Assembly: GCA_027596035.1 (NCBI GenBank)
Contig: JADGJA010000538.1
Span: 1-15,688, forward strand
Origin: Thoreauomyces humboldtii
Taxonomy: Eukaryota; Chytridiomycota; Chytridiomycetes; Spizellomycetales; Powellomycetaceae
Length of the DNA: 15,688 nucleotides
Direction of reading: 5' to 3'
Of the stretch, positions 1,716 to 15,553 are shown piece by piece (position 1 is the first letter of the stretch; every line of letters starts with the position of its first letter). Both the position numbers and the translations under genes were made by a program. The notes beneath the pieces are model-generated. The model searched no databases. It saw nothing but the letters and a program-made list of their open reading frames with translations, and was not told where the DNA came from.

Positions 1716-2216
1716 TTAATGTGCGGAGGGACGGGCAACCGGAACGGTCGGTGATGGAAGGTACTCCAAGAAGATGGTGTCGTCCGCAATCTTCTCACGG
1801 ATGTAGTGATGCCGGATGTCAATGTGCTTGGTGTGAGCGTGATGGATGGCGTTCTAGGCTAAGGCGATACACGACTGATTGTCTTCGTATATGACCGTAA
1901 AAGAGAGCGAGGGTCGGTGCGCATCCGGCAATAAGAGCTGTCGGAGAAGCGTTCGGAGCGACACCGCTTCGCGGGCGGTCAATGTGATGGCCATGTATTC
2001 TGCTTCCGTAGAAGATACTCTGTGCGTGACCCTGCGCCACTAGGCGCACCTTGTGGCGGGCGACGGAACCGTCCAGGGCGAGTTTGTCAATCAGAACGAC
2101 ACGACTGCCGACTACCTTGCGTCCTAAGGGTAAGTGAGGGGAAGCCACGTACAATTTCGGCGTGTGCCGCTAGCTCTAACTTCGTAAGCAGCTTCCCACG
2201 CTAGAGCTTCGCGCAT
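1716..2216 (-). mobile_element. Ty1/copia retrotransposon relic (pol: reverse transcriptase start joined to RNase H)
   Basis: Read on the minus strand. A copia RT entry region is seen near 2216-2130 (REALAWEAAYEV..., then NCTWLPLTYP). After a frameshift near 2130 comes GRKVVGSR and DGSVARHKVRLVAQGHAQ, the conserved start of the RVT_2 domain. Immediately after that, without the YVDD-containing core, the frame continues as STEAEYMAITLTAREAVSLR, then EDNQSCIALA, then an in-frame TAG, then NAIHHAHTKHIDIRHHYIRE, ending at a TAA at 1716-1718. The second part is the C-terminal RNase H region of copia pol. The element thus has a large internal deletion, a frameshift and a nonsense codon. It is dead and fragmentary. 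No gag, integrase or LTR is visible. Confidence 0.9.
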
Positions 2217-2527: not shown

Positions 2528-3996
2528 ATGAACAGAACCTACAGTACAGCTCACCCTGCAAATGAGTCAAATGGCAACGTGAGCGTCCAAGTTCCTGACC
2601 TTGAACAGGATGACTATCGACCCGCAAAGCCCGCTAGGCCCAAAGGCTATCTAGTTCCGCTGTCGGTCACTTTTTATATGGTATCGTCCATCGGTAAGCG
2701 ATACTTTTCCTGAAATGGTTCCCTGGACACGAGCATTTTACAGTATTGACAAGCAAGGTCGTCCCATATATGTCACAGTTATGCTGGTGGCCAATAAGAT
2801 GGTGCTCCTAAAGGTCGCCCTGCCAGTGACCTTCCTTTGGATCCAACTCATCATCGCGGTTGCGCTTCTTCACGCAAGCGCCTTCCTAGGGTGGTTCGTT
2901 ATCCCAACCGTTAACGTTGCCATGTCTCTGAACCTATGGCCCGTCGTGGCCATGAACGTTGTTGGACTGACGCTTAACACGTATACGATCCAAATGGGGG
3001 ATGCGAGCTTTTATCAGGTAAGTGCAAAACAGGAAGCCAGATGCAAGACGCACGGAGCCATGATTCAATTGCTAAATTTATAATTTCGGTTTACCCAATT
3101 AGATTGCACGGGGCCTCGTACTGCCGCTTACGGTAGCGCTTTCCTGGATGTATTTGGATCGGCCGTCGGCAAAGGTCCTTGGAGCCTGCGGCCTGGTCAC
3201 TGGAAGCTACCTACTGGGGACGCTCGGAGACTCTGTATCTGTGCACATCAGTACAGGTGCCATCCTCTTTGGCGCGCTGTCCTCCGTCACTACTGCGGGA
3301 CACGCCATCGTCATCAAGCAGGCTATGGGCTCAGGAGGCAACACGATCGATCTTGTGTATTACAACAACCTTCTGTCCGCCATCTTCTTCCCCATCGTGA
3401 TGCTGGTCACCGGAGAAGCCCGGACCTGTCAAACTTACGTTGCTCGGATGTTGGACGCGGACTCTGCCGCGGGGCTCGACTACAATGATGCAAAAACCTT
3501 CGTAGTTGGCTGTCTTTTGACGGTGAGAAAAAGGAAACCAGGGCCGGGAGGGCAGTTTTAATGGGTGGACTGTCTTGCTTAATGAAAACATGAATTCACG
3601 TTGTAGGGCACGCTAGGGTTTCTTCTCAACGTCGCGAGCTTCTTCCTGATCAAGGTGACTTCCCCAGTGACTCACGTTGTATCGTCGGCAGCTCGAGGAG
3701 TGTACGTATGCATCGCAGAAAACGAGTACGAGCGGTATACCATGAACATTGTAGCTCATTTTTCTTGTTGTTTGGGTCATCCTGCCTTTAACAGTCTGCA
3801 GACAGTAGTTGCTGTCATCCTCTTCAACGACACGGTGACGACTGTTCGTGCCGGCTCCCTAGTGGGTATCACCTTGGGCTCGGGACTTTACACGTGGATA
3901 AAGCATCTGGAGACGCAGAAACCCGCAGAGCTTCCCTTCAAGCAACTCCGCTTCCCTCAAGCGGCGTGGGTTATAAAAAGTGTTACGGCGGACTGA
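2528..3996 (+). CDS. GDP-fucose transporter (SLC35C1-like), Golgi membrane
   Basis: The exons are 2528-2693, 2779-3017, 3103-3522, 3607-3701 and 3795-3996. All junctions are in phase and give 373 residues, the usual size for the family. The protein is a multi-pass carrier expected to exchange GDP-fucose for GMP across the Golgi membrane. Family marks include VANKMVLL in the first membrane helix (residues about 60-67), YYNNLLSAIFFP (221-232), TSPVTHVVSSAARGV (293-307) and GSGLYTWIKHLE (335-346). The TSP.TH..S..A and GS..YTW...E motifs match SLC35C1 GDP-fucose carriers better than the Vrg4-type GDP-mannose carriers, which use a GALNK signature that I do not see. The hydrophilic N-terminus of about 45 residues starts at the first ATG in a good context. 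Introns are 85, 85, 84 and 93 nt. It converges with the dehydratase gene, 522 bases away. The context, with both GDP-fucose biosynthetic enzymes nearby, supports the substrate. A GDP-mannose or other sugar-nucleotide substrate remains possible. Confidence 0.88.
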
Positions 3997-4518: not shown

Positions 4519-6380
<1,862 letters not shown>

Positions 6381-7035: not shown

Positions 7036-7197
7036 AAGTTCCCCATGCCTCAAACTTCCCATAAGGCGGTGCCAGGTGCTGCGAGCATTGCGCTTTTACT
7101 GCCTCTAGGTTTAGGTAAGTTCACCATGCCTCAAACTTCCCACAGAGTGGTGCCAGTTGCTGCGAGCATTGCGCTTTTACTGCCTCTGGGTTTGGGT
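7036..7197. repeat. 81-bp tandem direct duplication, two copies, about 90% identical
   Basis: Copy 1 is 7036-7116 and copy 2 is 7117-7197, with 8 differences, 6 of them transitions. Copy 2 encodes the last residues and stop of the GT15-like protein. Copy 1 lies just beyond the stop. The period is 27 codons, so copy 1 continues the same reading frame and stays open past the stop (it reads LNLEAVKAQCSQHLAPPYGK against NPEAVKAQCSQQLAPLCGK). The TGA (bases 7121-7123) exists because copy 2 has TCA where copy 1 has TCC on the plus strand. Confidence 0.93.
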
Positions 7198-8423
7198 CCT
7201 GTTTGTGTATGAGATACTCGCGCCAAGGATATTTGGATGTCGTCAGGTTGTCGAAGAAGCCGAAAAGGAGGGGCCACACCGCTGTATTTAAGCGTCGAGA
7301 GCTGGATCAAAGACTTGAATCCTGCCGTTAAAACAGATTTGGTTGTCTTACCTTGCTCTCCCCATCTCTCGTTCCACGGCCAGTTTTCGACGAGATGGCC
7401 CATGAAGTCGAAGTAGGCCTCCGAGTGGAAGAACTTGGTCTCAGCTACTGCCCACCAGCCTGACCAGCGAGATCCTCGATTGGCCAGCATCTTGTGCTTT
7501 CGCGGTTCGGCTGCTCCGACGAGCTCCGCATAGCGGGCTGCAGTATCGTAGAGACTGGATATGCAAGGCTCATACTCCATCTCGCTCGGCTCGAACTGGA
7601 CGTACGAAAAGGCGAAATTTCGTTGAGCTATGAGATCGAAGGGATCCGTCGGCAGCGGCGAGATAAGATACGTGTCCGTGTCCATTCGCCACCAGTAGTC
7701 GTACGGCTTTAGGAATCCGGTTTTGAAAACGTAGTATATCCACCAGGGCCCCATAAGGCAGTAGTCCGATGGAAACTTCATGGTCCCGCATCTGCAGATC
7801 TCGTCCCACATGACGGTTCCAGCAGCCACCGCATCGGTTAAGACGGCCGGGAAATGCCACACAGCCGATACATCGACCAGCTTCATTTCGGCGGTGGTGT
7901 AGGTAGCGAGCTTCAGCTGTTCGGACATCGACAATCCCGTGTGAAACAGTAGGATGGGATAGCATGCGTACTTGTTGAATTGATCTTCAAGACGGGAAAG
8001 GGCGATGGCAATCTCGCCTAGCATCTCTGCTTTCTGATCCGCTGCGTTGGCGCCCAAGGTGTACACGACTACACCATTGTGCCCTTTTCGTAGATGGACT
8101 TTGCGGTCAGCATTATAAACTGGCCGTATCAAACCAATAGTGTTGCTCATACTTGGTGGATGATCACAGGTTGCATTTTTCGGCTTGTGCAACGACAGCT
8201 TGTAATCCGCTTCACTGGTTGGTTGGACATTAAGGTACTTGTGAGCAGAAGGGGGCATTGGAAAAGTGGTGGACGTGGTGCGTTGTGTTGAGTGGTCCTG
8301 GCTTAGGATTAGAACCGCGGAGGATGCTCCTCCGCTCATGTAGCCGAGCGTGAGAAGCACGAGGAGCAGAAATGTCAACAGAACGAGGCGGTTCAGCTTG
8401 AAAGTGACCTTTACAGAATGCAT
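7121..8423 (-). CDS. GT15-like (KRE2/MNT1-type) alpha-mannosyltransferase, type II Golgi membrane protein
   Basis: Two exons, 8423-7352 and 7281-7121, with a 70-nt intron (GTAAGA...ATACAG), give 410 residues. Without splicing, the frame would end in a sequence with no family resemblance; with it the conserved block NERWGEQAVWPLLFGFFDN is restored. A single N-terminal anchor (about 12-28, LVLLTFLLLVLLTLGYM) follows a short basic tail, the type II Golgi topology. The layout resembles GT15 enzymes: YYVFKTGFLKPYDYWWRMDTD (230-250) corresponds to the KRE2 block FF..P.L..Y.YYWRVEPD. SGWWAVAETKFFHSEAYFDFM (321-341) and NERWGEQAVW correspond to W.NFEI...F..S..Y..FF and ERWGDAPVH. The usual E-P-D metal/nucleotide motif is replaced by D-T-D at 248-250, so donor and acceptor may differ from GDP-mannose and mannan. 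It diverges from the fusion gene across a 169-base promoter. Length is normal for the family. A distant GT-A relative outside GT15 is the alternative. Confidence 0.68.
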
Positions 8424-8592: not shown

Positions 8593-11261
8593 ATGACAGC
8601 CATGAGGAGATTATCCATGTCGAGCATTGTAGCGAAGTTGAAGCATCGCATGACAATGCGTTATGTCTTGTTGGCAGTCGTAGTCTATATGACTTGCGTT
8701 GTCGTCTCATCATCGCGCCACGTCAACCGCCTCGTTATCGATCACCCTGTTTCGATGTCGGGTTCCTGGAGAGTTAAATCCTCCAATCCCACCGATCCCA
8801 GCCCAACCTGTGATTGGATCCCCCAAAGCTTGCATCCCGCGGCCAAATTCCTGGGACAGCCATCAGGACTCAGCTTTGCGCTCGAGGACGCCTGGGTCCG
8901 ATCAGGTCTGTTCGCGCTTCGGTCCGAAAAAGACGTCTCTCAAAGAATTCTGAGTATGGAGCTTACCGTCGCCCAAACTTATAGACTCTCCTCGGGTTTC
9001 GGCAAAGGACTTTGAGGCAAGTGGCTCCAATGTGATTCCGGCGGCGTTGCCTTCGGTAAGATTTTTGATGTCGCTGTGTTCGGGGCATTGACCTTTTCAC
9101 TAAGCAGTTTCCGCAACGTGCAGAATTACCGCGTGAACGTCACCGATTGGGATTTGAAGTGGGATGCCGAAACTCTTAACGAGGCGATCCGTGAAGACTG
9201 GGGTGGCGACGCAGATACTCCTGTTTCGCCGCACGCCTTTGCTGTTATGAGCACGCACGCGGACAAGCTCAGAAACAAGAGCGGACTGCTGTTAGGCCCA
9301 CACAGGCGATGGTTCGAAGCTTTAGCGCTGAAATACGGAGCTCGACATGTGTCAACGCTCGAATCACCCATCGATGATCCTGGCGCATTTCAACACAAAA
9401 GTGTGACGCGTTACGACTCGCGTACCTTCAATTCCAAATTCCTGTCCGGATCCATCGAGACCTTCGACTTTGCATGGAGCTACTCGTTTTTAGAGTTGGA
9501 GGGGGTTGCAGCCCAGTTCAACCCGGACCCAAAAGCGGACTTGCATCACATGGCGAGAATGCTGTCAATCTTGAAGCCGGGCGGGTTCCTCTTCGTTGGC
9601 ATGCCCTGCTGCATGGACGCAGTTTATCTCGATTCTCTTCGAACGTACGGACCACGACGTCTTCAGAGCCTACTCGCAGGCTGGCATGTTGTGGAAGTGT
9701 ACCCGAATGATTTCTTGACTCATGTTGCCGGGCAAGGTGCTGAGTATTTTCAGCCAATATGGGTGCTGCAGAATACTCTAGGGTGCGCAAACAGCCATAA
9801 TTCGCAAGCGTTGGATCTTCTCATGCTTAACAGCTCGACGGTGCGTGCACGTCTCCTTGAAAGTTGTGCTATTGCCGACTGATACAACCCGCCCGTTTCA
9901 GCTCGCAGCAAGTATTAATACTTCGAGATTTGATGTTCGCTTGCGAAACGCGGACGATAACCTGACGATGGTAACCAGGACAGCACAAGTATTCGATCTT
10001 TTCAACATGACGACAACTGTACCGCAACTCGCCCAGCTCACTCCCGCTAGAGTCGACAACCGGCTAGGTTTGGATGCCTTGATACGGGACTACGTAAAGT
10101 TAAACAGAGAAGCACGCGAAAACCCAAGAAATGCTCGCTGGATCGTGATGCAGTGTACCGAAAGCGGTAATGGTGGTCTTGGGGACCGATTCAAAGGAAT
10201 CGTCTCGATGTTCTACTACGGATTGATGACCGGCCGTGCCTTCGCCATCGACTGGACCTATCCCGATCTTCTCCAGGATTATCTTGCACCCAATATGATC
10301 GATTGGCGCTGGCAGTCGGCGTGGGGTTTCAATCGCAGCGGCATATATGTCGACATGCTCGGCGAAGCATGGAGAGATGAACGTCGCATGAATCTCATTA
10401 GCAACCACACCGACTTCTGGGGCACACACGAGATTGTTCGAATGCGATCTCGCGTGGACCTCATCTCATTTATCCTGCAAAATAGACACTGGGAAGAGAC
10501 CATCCTTCGGTACTCTTTGAAAACTTTTAACCGAGAATCTTTAGCAGGAATAGTTCTGAGAGCACTATTCAAACCTTCCGCCGCGGCCCTCGAGAATCTC
10601 GAGCTCCTGGATCAGCGCATATTCAACTATAGGAAATCGAAGAAAGTGGCCTTACAATTTCGCGCGGGCGCTGGCTCTGGAGAAGCAGCGTTTGCGGGCG
10701 ATGAGGTCGCCCACCGCTTGGGTTTCGACGCAGCCAATTGCTTCACGGCGCAGGGCATTCAGTATGCGTTGAATCAGCGATTGCTCGCCCACGAGACGGT
10801 ATTTTTCCTTACGGGAGACTCGTCTAAGGCACTAGAGATGATGGGGGACCAGCTGTCTGCTCTAGGATTCCGTTCCTTTACGACCACTGGTAAGTCTCTC
10901 TTTGATGGCCGTAGCCTTTACTCCCTTTTTAACTAATGGGCCCCTCATGGTTGCAGGCGATATGACTCACATCGATTTCGCCGCCCACGAGCCTCCGAAC
11001 GACCACCGTATGCTGCACATGCGGACATATCTCGATTGGTTGATAATGTTAGACATGGATTATTTGGTTACCTCGCGTTCCGGATTTGGGGAAACGGCAA
11101 TCTACTTTACACTCGACCAGAGCGCTCGCATCACGAAGAACAAGCACGGAGGCGTCCCTCCGTGCGAGATGCAGATGGGCAACAACCAGAGCGACTGGGT
11201 GTTTATTGAGGGTTGGAACGGGGATCAGCACGGTGGTCATGTAACCCACGCGAATAACTAA
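8593..11261 (+). CDS. Fusion protein: DUF268 methyltransferase-like domain plus fucosyltransferase-like domain (GT37/GT11-type)
   Basis: Five exons, 8593-8905, 8985-9055, 9124-9840, 9902-10889 and 10957-11261, are in phase throughout and give 797 residues. The N-terminus has a type II anchor (MRYVLLAVVVYMTCVVV, about 22-38). Residues about 165-330 match DUF268, a Rossmann-type methyltransferase-like family: LLLGPHRRWFEALALKYGA (183-201), FDFAWSYSFLELEG..., NPDPKADLHHMARML and ILKPGGFLFVGMP (277-289), then YGPRRLQSLL. Residues about 425-797 resemble plant-type fucosyltransferases. LIRDYVKLNREARE is followed by GNGGLGDRFKGIVSMFYYGLM (456-476), a VALQFRAG strand (616-623), FFLTGDSS (668-675) and DWLIMLDMDYLVTSRSGFGE, a motif-III-like sugar-nucleotide site. 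The 61-nt intron 9841-9901 (GTGCGT...TTTCAG) joins the two halves; without it they are two overlapping frames. The first intron is least certain: a 31-nt version (8954-8984) would also keep phase. The start could be 8593, 8602 or 8617. The context implies GDP-fucose as donor. The acceptor and the modification are unknown. Confidence 0.75.
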
Positions 11262-11404: not shown

Positions 11405-12559
11405 TCAAATTTGACTTTTCATCGCTTTGCGAAAGTCCTCGAGGTATTTGTCCACGACGCTCATGTCCGCCTCGGAAAGTAATAATGCAAGCAAGTTTCG
11501 CAACCTTGGCCAGTTTTTGTCCTCGTAACCCGGCCGAAGGAGGTGGGCATCCACAAAGTTGGGCAGGGTTTCACCAGAAACATCTGCAGGCCACGCGATG
11601 CGGTCCATCCGATCCGACAGAGTATCGCGCGGAATCTCAAGCAACCGCCCCGTGTGCTCGCCAGGGAGTGCCAGGAGGTAGCTGACTAGGATCTGATCGT
11701 AGTACCAGCGGGTTAGGACACCCTTTTCGGGGAGTACCAACGCGCTCGAAGTGCCGTAACCAAGGTGGCGAGTTAGGAGATCGTTCGTACCCTGCACGAC
11801 CGCGTCCTGGACTTGAGCTGTGGTTTGCTTGTGGGAGCCGACTGACTGGACTCCAAGGACCTGTTTCCAGGTTTCCACGGCCATGCCAATGCACGACATT
11901 GGGTATTCTCGGTATTCGATACCAGCCACGTTACCGTGGCCGCAGCAGAGAGCGTTGTATAGCGAGATGTCTTTGCCAGAGACGTTGAACCGCTCTTGCT
12001 GGACCTCGTTAGTCCAGTAAGGTCGTTGGGCGAGCGGCCACAGATCGACATCCGAAGTCAGCACATATGCGTGGACATCCAGCTCGGGAAGGAGCGAAGC
12101 CATCAGCCGACTGGATTGACTTAGGACCTGCCCATTGGCAGGCAGGCTGCTGTTGGGTTTGAGATGCCGCACGATGCCAATGTTTTGGTCGCGCAAAAGC
12201 TTTTCCACGATAGGAAAGAAGCGCCCTGAAGGGCCGGCATCGCTTGGAGCGACACCGGGCGCTCCATCCTTTGTGCTATCGTCGTCAATGAGGAAAACGA
12301 TGGGGGTAAACCCCACGTATCTTGCCCAGACCATGGCCGTTAATGGGATGAAAAAGGAATACATAGGGTTCTCCTCGGAAGCAATAACGGCGTATTGCTT
12401 TTGTGGCGATGTCTCGCTGAACCCGATGAGGTGCGGATGGACGTGGGAACTGGCACCATGGTGCCAAACAGCGAGCAGGCACCCAACGATGACCACGGTG
12501 GAGATGAGCACCATAGGCCTACGGTGCCGCAGGCGCTTTTTTGTGCCCTTGATCGTCAT
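11405..12559 (-). CDS. Putative GT-A glycosyltransferase, type II membrane protein, family not assigned
   Basis: An uninterrupted 384-residue frame, the only intronless gene of the cluster. A basic cytosolic tail (KGTKKRLRHRR) precedes a single membrane anchor at about 16-32 (MVLISTVVIVGCLLAVW), typical of Golgi glycosyltransferases. The lumenal domain begins with a Rossmann-like start (QKQYAVIASEENPMYSFFIP), then VGFTPIVFLID. Later comes AYVLTSDVDLWPLAQRPYW (164-182), in which D-V-D at 170-172 looks like the metal-binding DxD motif of GT-A enzymes that use nucleotide sugars. Cys-Cys-Gly-His and several isolated Cys suggest disulfides. I cannot name a CAZy family. The SDvDlWPL motif recalls poorly characterised nucleotide-diphospho-sugar transferase-like proteins of animals and protists. 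Its position between the fucosyltransferase fusion and GDP-fucose synthase suggests that it adds a sugar to the same glycan. It shares a 302-base divergent promoter with the synthase gene. Confidence 0.65.
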   Translation of the reverse strand: MTIKGTKKRLRHRRPMVLISTVVIVGCLLAVWHHGASSHVHPHLIGFSETSPQKQYAVIASEENPMYSFFIPLTAMVWARYVGFTPIVFLIDDDSTKDGAPGVAPSDAGPSGRFFPIVEKLLRDQNIGIVRHLKPNSSLPANGQVLSQSSRLMASLLPELDVHAYVLTSDVDLWPLAQRPYWTNEVQQERFNVSGKDISLYNALCCGHGNVAGIEYREYPMSCIGMAVETWKQVLGVQSVGSHKQTTAQVQDAVVQGTNDLLTRHLGYGTSSALVLPEKGVLTRWYYDQILVSYLLALPGEHTGRLLEIPRDTLSDRMDRIAWPADVSGETLPNFVDAHLLRPGYEDKNWPRLRNLLALLLSEADMSVVDKYLEDFRKAMKSQI

Positions 12560-12861: not shown

Positions 12862-14289
<1,428 letters not shown>

Positions 14290-14778: not shown

Positions 14779-15169
14779 TTTCGATGATCAACTGTCTAAA
14801 CTACTGGTTTCCCGCCAAAAGTCAAATTTAAAAAATAAAAGTAAAGAGACAGAAATGTAGCCAAAGATAATCTCCATCTTTCCTTCATTGGATGTGCCTG
14901 TGCCGACGGCCTCCCCAGGGCGTGCGATGAGATGGCGTGTGGAGGGTCAGCAAAGGAAGAGAAATGGGGGGAAAAATTCTGGAGCTATCCAAAAGTATGT
15001 GTGCGCTGGGGGCCGAGTGGAAGCTTTCGACAGCGAGTTGCTCGCGTCACTGTACGTGTCGGCGTTTTCCAAGCTTCCAGTCTTCCAGAGCCTAAGCTCC
15101 TTTCCCCGGATCTTGTTGTTGCGGGTACCATCACTTCCATCACTGCCCCAAAGGACTACTTACAATGCG

Positions 15170-15553
15170 AGTATTGTAGCATTCACCATCTCAGAAAAGG
15201 GCGAACATCCAGATACTTACAAACTGGAACTGTCGTACCAATGGAGAAAGCTCCACCCGGTATTCCATACCTGCATCCTGAAGCCTTACATCGAACCCAC
15301 TCGCAGTCGACATCGGAAACCAATCGTGGTTCCCGAGCCAGTGGTGATCGAGGGCCAGCGTTATGATGAGATCGAGAAGATCGTCGCAGAAAAGACGCTG
15401 AGGGGAATTCCTCACTATAATGTGGTGTGGAAAGGATATGGATCCCACAAGAACGCTTGGGAGCAGGCCAAGAACATCGACGCTGAGTCTCTATTGATAT
15501 GGAACTCGCGCCTGAAAGGTGCTAAAGACAGGGAGAAGAGGAAGCGGAAATAG
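15170..15553 (+). mobile_element. Ty3/gypsy chromovirus relic: integrase C-terminus and chromodomain
   Basis: The frame reads YKLELSYQWRKLHPVFHTC, then ILKPYIEPTRSRHRKP, the end of the gypsy integrase that precedes the chromodomain. PVVIEGQRYDEIEKIVAEK, then YNVVWKGYGSHKNAWE and NIDAESLLIWNSR follow, matching the chromodomain pattern (E.E.I...R......YLVKWKGY....TWE...N). The frame ends in a Lys/Arg-rich tail and TAG at 15551-15553. Chromovirus integrases use this domain to target chromatin. No catalytic integrase core, reverse transcriptase or LTR is visible within the window, so the element is 5'-truncated or too decayed to follow. An LTR could begin in the last 135 bases, but I could not identify one. 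Confidence 0.9.

Follow-up and report, generated by a model that had tools for sequence, protein, structure and literature searches.

What would a DUF268 domain do when it is joined to a fucosyltransferase-like domain in one membrane protein? The question is raised by the gene HKX48_006801 of the chytrid Thoreauomyces humboldtii, located in a stretch of 15,688 nucleotides (nt) that was analysed as a whole and is called the window below (contig JADGJA010000538.1, forward strand; assembly GCA_027596035.1, 20.67 Mb in 823 contigs). An earlier note, made from the letters of the window, had proposed that the DUF268 half acts as an O-methyltransferase on the fucose handled by the second half, or on its acceptor. 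The reading favoured here, to which we give about an even chance, is that of a fucosyltransferase of the Golgi which carries an accessory, methyltransferase-like domain, most likely past its family reaction and possibly a pseudoenzyme.

The fusion protein and its relatives

As the earlier note had claimed, both halves are found in one protein: the predicted NCBI protein of this gene (P0001) and the predicted ortholog from Geranomyces variabilis (P0002, HDU89_003662; a cluster of three sequences) run through the same junction of DUF268 and glycosyltransferase (GT) half. The features of the gene are as follows (aa, amino acids; SAM, S-adenosylmethionine).

8602..11261, + strand: fusion gene HKX48_006801 (NCBI), 794 aa; the NCBI protein lies inside the model and the G. 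variabilis ortholog aligns along its length
8602-8905, 8985-9055, 9124-9840, 9902-10889 and 10957-11261, + strand: exons
8906-8984 (79 nt), 9056-9123 (68 nt), 9841-9901 (61 nt) and 10890-10956 (67 nt): the four introns
8602..8905, + strand: exon 1, encoding a basic N-terminus, a single hydrophobic stretch (reads as type II, Golgi-like) and a stem
9277..9711, + strand: DUF268 domain (PF03269), for which a class I SAM-methyltransferase fold is predicted
9493..9531, + strand: place of the EHxGLGRYGD loop, here ELEGVAAQFNPDP, signature lost
9841..9901, + strand: junction of the two domains, a phase-0 intron of 61 nt (GTGCGT...TTTCAG)
9935..11141, + strand: GT37-like fucosyltransferase half (GGLGDR, QFRAGAGSGE, SRSGFGETA), exons 4-5; range from the match to a Fimicolochytrium protein (P0003)

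A full-length protein search, with an earlier splice model of 825 aa as query and 7997 candidates scored, gave P0001 and P0002 as the only full-length relatives, covering 97-99% of the query. They are 68% identical over their alignment; by part, identity amounts to 34% in residues 1-104 (32 of 93), 71% in DUF268 (residues 159-303), 64% in the part that follows, 80% in the main GT part and 82% in the C-terminal part. Standalone versions of each half exist. A protein of Fimicolochytrium jonesii (P0003, EV422DRAFT_540345, 480 aa) resembles the GT half with 39% identity but has no DUF268, and all three species belong to the Powellomycetaceae (Spizellomycetales, Chytridiomycota). Residues 2-18 of P0001 form a helix in the structure model, matching the N-terminal hydrophobic stretch, which is consistent with the membrane protein proposed before.

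The DUF268 half and its lost loop

Profile search of the first half confirmed its family: PF03269 reached E 4.1e-22 and 79.3 bits in the window, with 76.7 bits for P0001 and 80.1 bits for P0002 (gathering cut-off 25). A class I SAM-methyltransferase fold is predicted for it by structure modelling, in line with the methyltransferase-like Rossmann fold suggested before; among solved structures, the exon-3 region alone gave only matches of E 0.49 or more, and a profile of canonical DUF268 gave no match below E 0.13. A glycine-rich GxGxG motif I is typical of class I SAM-methyltransferases. It is absent from the fused DUF268, where G-[SP]-x-x-x-W-x-E or a near form stands instead, likewise in canonical DUF268.

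The main rival explanation, unlikely in our estimate yet the one to be weighed most closely, is a bifunctional enzyme, whose GT half would add fucose and whose DUF268 half would O-methylate this fucose or the acceptor via a remodelled site. It would draw on the predicted fold, on the constraint under which the domain stands, on DUF268-glycosyltransferase fusions at other loci, and on a working precedent, the chlorovirus protein A064R, described in passages of PMC9614988. Conservation was counted over 20 standalone DUF268 proteins from the protein search, a set that shares short words with the fusions and is without Caenorhabditis members. Here the fusions keep 19 of the 26 invariant columns, which again suits a working enzyme, but the seven columns changed in one or both fusions all fall within EHxGLGRYGD (one of them, a glycine, is retained in G. 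variabilis). This motif is present in 20/20 standalone homologs and in 0/2 fusions, G. variabilis having ESEGIGNLDP at its place. Among the 54 columns conserved in at least 18 of the 20 proteins, moreover, 16 differ in both fusions: nine around the loop and seven elsewhere, including two in the glycine loop after beta-1 and two in the WNAHR stretch. The loop is placed after strand 4 in the structure model, and the region after strand 4 is the catalytic side of the class I methyltransferase fold, which also argues against the bifunctional enzyme. Occurrences of EHxGLGRYGD in bacterial and viral loci were left out of these counts, because the patterns used to find those loci include parts of the motif.

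Because EHxGLGRYGD is lost, the fused domain possibly does not catalyse the family reaction; the loss of a loop falls short of proving lost catalysis, and the residues concerned probably form the active site of canonical DUF268. Standalone proteins such as G. michiganensis HDU86_007774 and Hypsibius BV898_03498 resemble the fusion in scoring well above the Pfam cut-off and in their predicted fold, and several have a hydrophobic N-terminus (by reading) as the fusion has; unlike it, they have no GT half and keep both the loop and WNAHR or a near form, which are altered in the fusions. In a DUF268 tree of 28 rows, which does not resolve the place of the fusion among eukaryotic DUF268, the stem of the fusions exceeds every other internal branch in length (2.43 changes per column) and the two fusion tips measure 0.25 and 0.55 changes per column. 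A long stem with short tips looks like a function that was shifted or lost, followed by renewed constraint.

The GT37-like half

The motifs GNGGLGDRF and SRSGFGETA, named before for the second half, were located in P0001 at the places given. A profile of this half, built from five sequences, was compared with solved structures, and the four best matches were all fucosyltransferases: 5koe, 5kop and 5kx6 (galactoside 2-alpha-L-fucosyltransferase) and 9nqh (probable fucosyltransferase 4), with E from 1.7e-4 (5koe) to 1.4e-3 (9nqh), the next following at E 0.75 and above. We take all four to belong to family GT37, and the first three to be Arabidopsis FUT1. The likeness consists of two collinear motifs, GLG-R and VTS-SxFG, each match being made up of two weak stretches. 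On this comparison the second half is best called GT37-like and not GT37, because the Pfam scores stay below the cut-off, the motifs are weak singly and the AlphaFold2 (AF2) model is unusable; the profile shows likeness, not membership, and the likeness to plant GT37 enzymes likewise lies below the XG_FTase cut-off. From the GT37/GT11-like label of the earlier note, the GT37 part thus survives as a weak profile match; in Pfam, no GT11 match with E of 10 or less appeared for P0001-P0003, where filters drop weak matches, so that this is no evidence of absence.

DUF268 was not seen in plant GT37 enzymes, no search having been aimed at this. Exon 4 alone had no match among solved structures, and a scan of the viral contigs for the GT half matched 11 stretches with no true relative among them. 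With PF03254, PF10250, PF00852 and PF19745 nothing was found in the T. humboldtii genome; control genomes were silent as well, introns splitting the genes, and absence is not claimed.

The GDP-fucose gene cluster

The fusion gene lies within a cluster of about 12 kb, together with the following genes (ORF, open reading frame).

2528..3996, + strand: nucleotide-sugar-transporter-like gene, TPT family, 5 exons in the model, 373 aa; PF03151 E 1.4e-13
4824..6380 (approximate), - strand: GDP-mannose 4,6-dehydratase gene; 6gpj E 1.8e-50, one exon
7131..8423, - strand: GT15-like mannosyltransferase, divergent from the fusion gene; PF01793 E 5.3e-11, 1s4n just E 0.24
11405..12559, - strand: single-exon orphan ORF of 384 aa; by reading, it has an SDVD motif and a hydrophobic stretch at the N-terminus
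12862..14179 (limits by reading), + strand: GDP-L-fucose synthase gene, several exons; 4b8w E 2.8e-50, one exon

This content favours fucose chemistry. The synthase locus is the sole place found in the assembly, with that one exon as query; for the dehydratase, uniqueness among proteins of its kind is not claimed, because further PF16363 matches are present in the assembly. For the transporter, which had no PDB sequence match, GDP-fucose is the probable cargo, judged from its company and from a presumed likeness to SLC35C1. The GT15-like neighbour is presumably of the KRE2/MNT1 type. The orphan ORF gave no Pfam or PDB match, only a chance-level NCBIfam match (E 0.096) and no second copy in the assembly; it is possibly an undescribed glycosyltransferase. 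Towards the two ends of the window, ORF 14861-15553 (+) reads by eye like the chromodomain end of a retroelement polyprotein, and ORF 1819-2169 (-) like part of a copia-type retroelement.

It is improbable that the donor of the GT half is a GDP-sugar other than GDP-fucose (GDP-mannose, GDP-rhamnose or GDP-galactose) and that the fucose genes are adjacent for other reasons. The sub-threshold GT37 match and the adjoining GT15-like mannosyltransferase would allow it; fucosyltransferases as all four best structure matches, and GDP-fucose synthesis genes on both sides of the fusion gene, at distances of about 2.2 kb (upstream) and 1.6 kb (downstream), speak against it.

Splicing of the fusion gene

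The intron at 9841-9901 had been read correctly in the earlier note, with GTGCGT...TTTCAG ends and exact phase, and is used by both predicted proteins; three further introns, two in the 5' part and the last one, had gone unmentioned. P0001 is wholly contained in the spliced model and therefore has the same 9841-9901 junction. A first splice model with one intron of 63 nt (8954-9016) was rejected, as P0001 and the G. variabilis ortholog have two introns there; without splicing, the exon-2 region falls in a different frame and runs into TGA at 9013-9015. NCBI places the start codon at 8656 (776 aa), and the upstream ATG at 8602 gives 794 aa; by comparison with P0002, which begins at the matching place, 8602 is the better start. 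That the fusion is a gene-model artefact made of two adjacent genes is very improbable: with the intron retained the exon-3 frame would meet TGA at 9880-9882, and each half is also known standalone, but the intron is phase-0 and GT-AG, G. variabilis has the same junction (though likewise in a predicted protein) and the second half, by reading, does not begin with a hydrophobic stretch.

Proposed function

For the favoured Golgi fucosyltransferase, the dehydratase and synthase would convert GDP-mannose to GDP-fucose, which the transporter would probably bring into the Golgi, where the C-terminal GT37-like half of a type II membrane enzyme would fucosylate a glycan that perhaps contains mannose. 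For the DUF268 module, the ancestor would be an active enzyme of the standalone kind, probably one that methylated sugars; with its fold kept and the invariant loop after strand 4 gone, the module would most likely have lost the family reaction, and would serve in acceptor binding or in stabilising or positioning the transferase. Of this, the gene model, the joining of the two halves in two genera, the DUF268 membership at Pfam level, the genes of the cluster and the missing loop are shown, and the fold is predicted; we infer from the evidence above the donor fucose, the Golgi site, the lost catalysis and the role of the module.

Several observations weigh against this reading. The fusion is known from two sequence clusters only. 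XG_FTase (PF03254) scored 11.2 bits for P0001, 20.5 for P0003 and 19.7 for a further protein, P0004, all below the cut-off of 23.4, with no line for P0002 and P0005; the two motifs of the 5koe match, taken singly, are not significant (E 0.81 and 2.6); and in the GT half, the AF2 model has a predicted local distance difference test (pLDDT) score mostly <50, which makes it unusable for recognising a GT-B fold. The fused DUF268 also keeps the beta-1 glycine, the acidic end of beta-2 and KPGG, which we take to be SAM-site positions, and with these the enzyme could be active.

The chemistry first proposed, O-methylation of the fucose or its acceptor, remains plausible for the family; for this protein it is weakened because the signature loop is lost.

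Related architectures and loci

The closest described system is A064R of chlorovirus PBCV-1 (638 aa), in which, according to passages of PMC9614988 and PMC7826918, two rhamnosyltransferase domains share a chain with a methyltransferase domain acting on the terminal rhamnose by 2-O-methylation. The chytrid fusion likewise joins a probable 6-deoxyhexose transferase to a domain of the class I SAM-methyltransferase type; A064R differs in that its sugar is rhamnose and not fucose, its methyltransferase is C-terminal and reported as active, and the protein is predicted to be soluble.

From 137 bacterial and viral DUF268 loci, 10 long ORFs were picked by length, and four contain glycosyltransferase and/or other methyltransferase domains: L052 and L004 (bacterial), L078 and L100 (viral contigs). 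Locus L052 (6159-16451) has a bacterial ORF of 3431 aa with DUF268, Methyltransf_23 (two stretches), GT4-/GT2-type domains and TPR repeats, and L004 likewise has GT4/GT2-type and other methyltransferase domains; the protein at L078 (7227-8858) has GT25 and DUF268, that at L100 (7209-8744) an FkbM methyltransferase and DUF268. The canonical EHxGLGRYGD loop is kept in L052, L004 and L078. These proteins resemble the chytrid one in fusing DUF268, but are prokaryotic or viral and involve other GT families. Since they exist, a DUF268-glycosyltransferase fusion is not new as a kind; titles and abstracts found in a literature search included none on a DUF268-fucosyltransferase-like fusion. Joined to a fucosyltransferase-like domain in a membrane protein of a eukaryote, DUF268 was seen, among the candidates scored, in the two chytrids only.

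Fucose genes were surveyed around 80 viral and 57 bacterial DUF268 loci and 80 viral FkbM-methyltransferase control loci, of which 59, 56 and 65 remained after removal of loci without a tblastn anchor or sharing >30% of anchor words; on average the control loci span less sequence, and a few of them share contigs with the DUF268 set. A gmd-like gene (at least 40% identity to E. coli gmd) within about 8 kb was found at 11/59 viral, 9/56 bacterial and 2/65 control loci (Fisher p 0.007 for viral DUF268 vs FkbM), an fcl-like gene (at least 30%) at 11/59, 6/56 and 8/65, both at 4, 5 and 1, and rmlA/C at 3, 4 and 0. For loci of at least 14 kb, gmd stood at 7/33 viral DUF268 vs 2/24 control loci (p 0.28), and fcl was commoner in the control (8/24 vs 8/33). 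GDP-fucose genes beside bacterial and viral DUF268 are thus only suggestive and were not used as support; DUF268 loci may be generally rich in sugar genes. Adjoining GMD-like and GDP-fucose-synthase-like genes were seen on the viral contigs L060 (10472-12395), L071 (11030-12964) and L080 (12104-14009), starting about 2 to 3.5 kb after a DUF268 gene; over one exon, their synthase shares 57-61% identity with that of the chytrid.

Passages of a fungal fucose-gene survey (PMC10481521) report de novo GDP-fucose genes and XG_FTase proteins in some Chytridiomycota and no fungal GT11; the word "fusion" is absent from the survey, and the passages on "cluster" describe no such locus. The literature passages found on DUF268, from C. 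elegans papers, assign it no function, and PF03269 was not met in the portions of the papers searched; other matches to "DUF268" there were the different names DUF2683, DUF2680 and DUF2686. Some tectonin lectins are described, in an abstract on them, as binding O-alkylated sugars.

Implications

The cluster may represent a compact locus for fucosylation in a chytrid, and with a fucosyltransferase-like fusion inside a GDP-fucose cluster, a fucose-linked role of DUF268 becomes directly testable. Probable active-site residues of canonical DUF268, a candidate deoxyhexose O-methyltransferase, are indicated by the loop that the fused copies have lost. In C. elegans, passages of PMC7614267 describe clusters of potential glycosylation genes with putative glycosyltransferases, potential methyltransferases, NDP-sugar transporters and DUF268 genes, and N-glycans with 2-O-methylfucose whose responsible methyltransferase is unidentified. 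We tentatively suggest, as a possibility short of a likelihood, that DUF268 is the missing family of O-methyltransferases for fucose and related deoxyhexoses and that the chytrid fusion ties it to fucosylation in the manner of a Rosetta stone, its methyltransferase half having turned into an acceptor reader (a pseudo-methyltransferase) that serves a fucosyltransferase. If this is true, DUF268 would include the nematode fucose methyltransferase.
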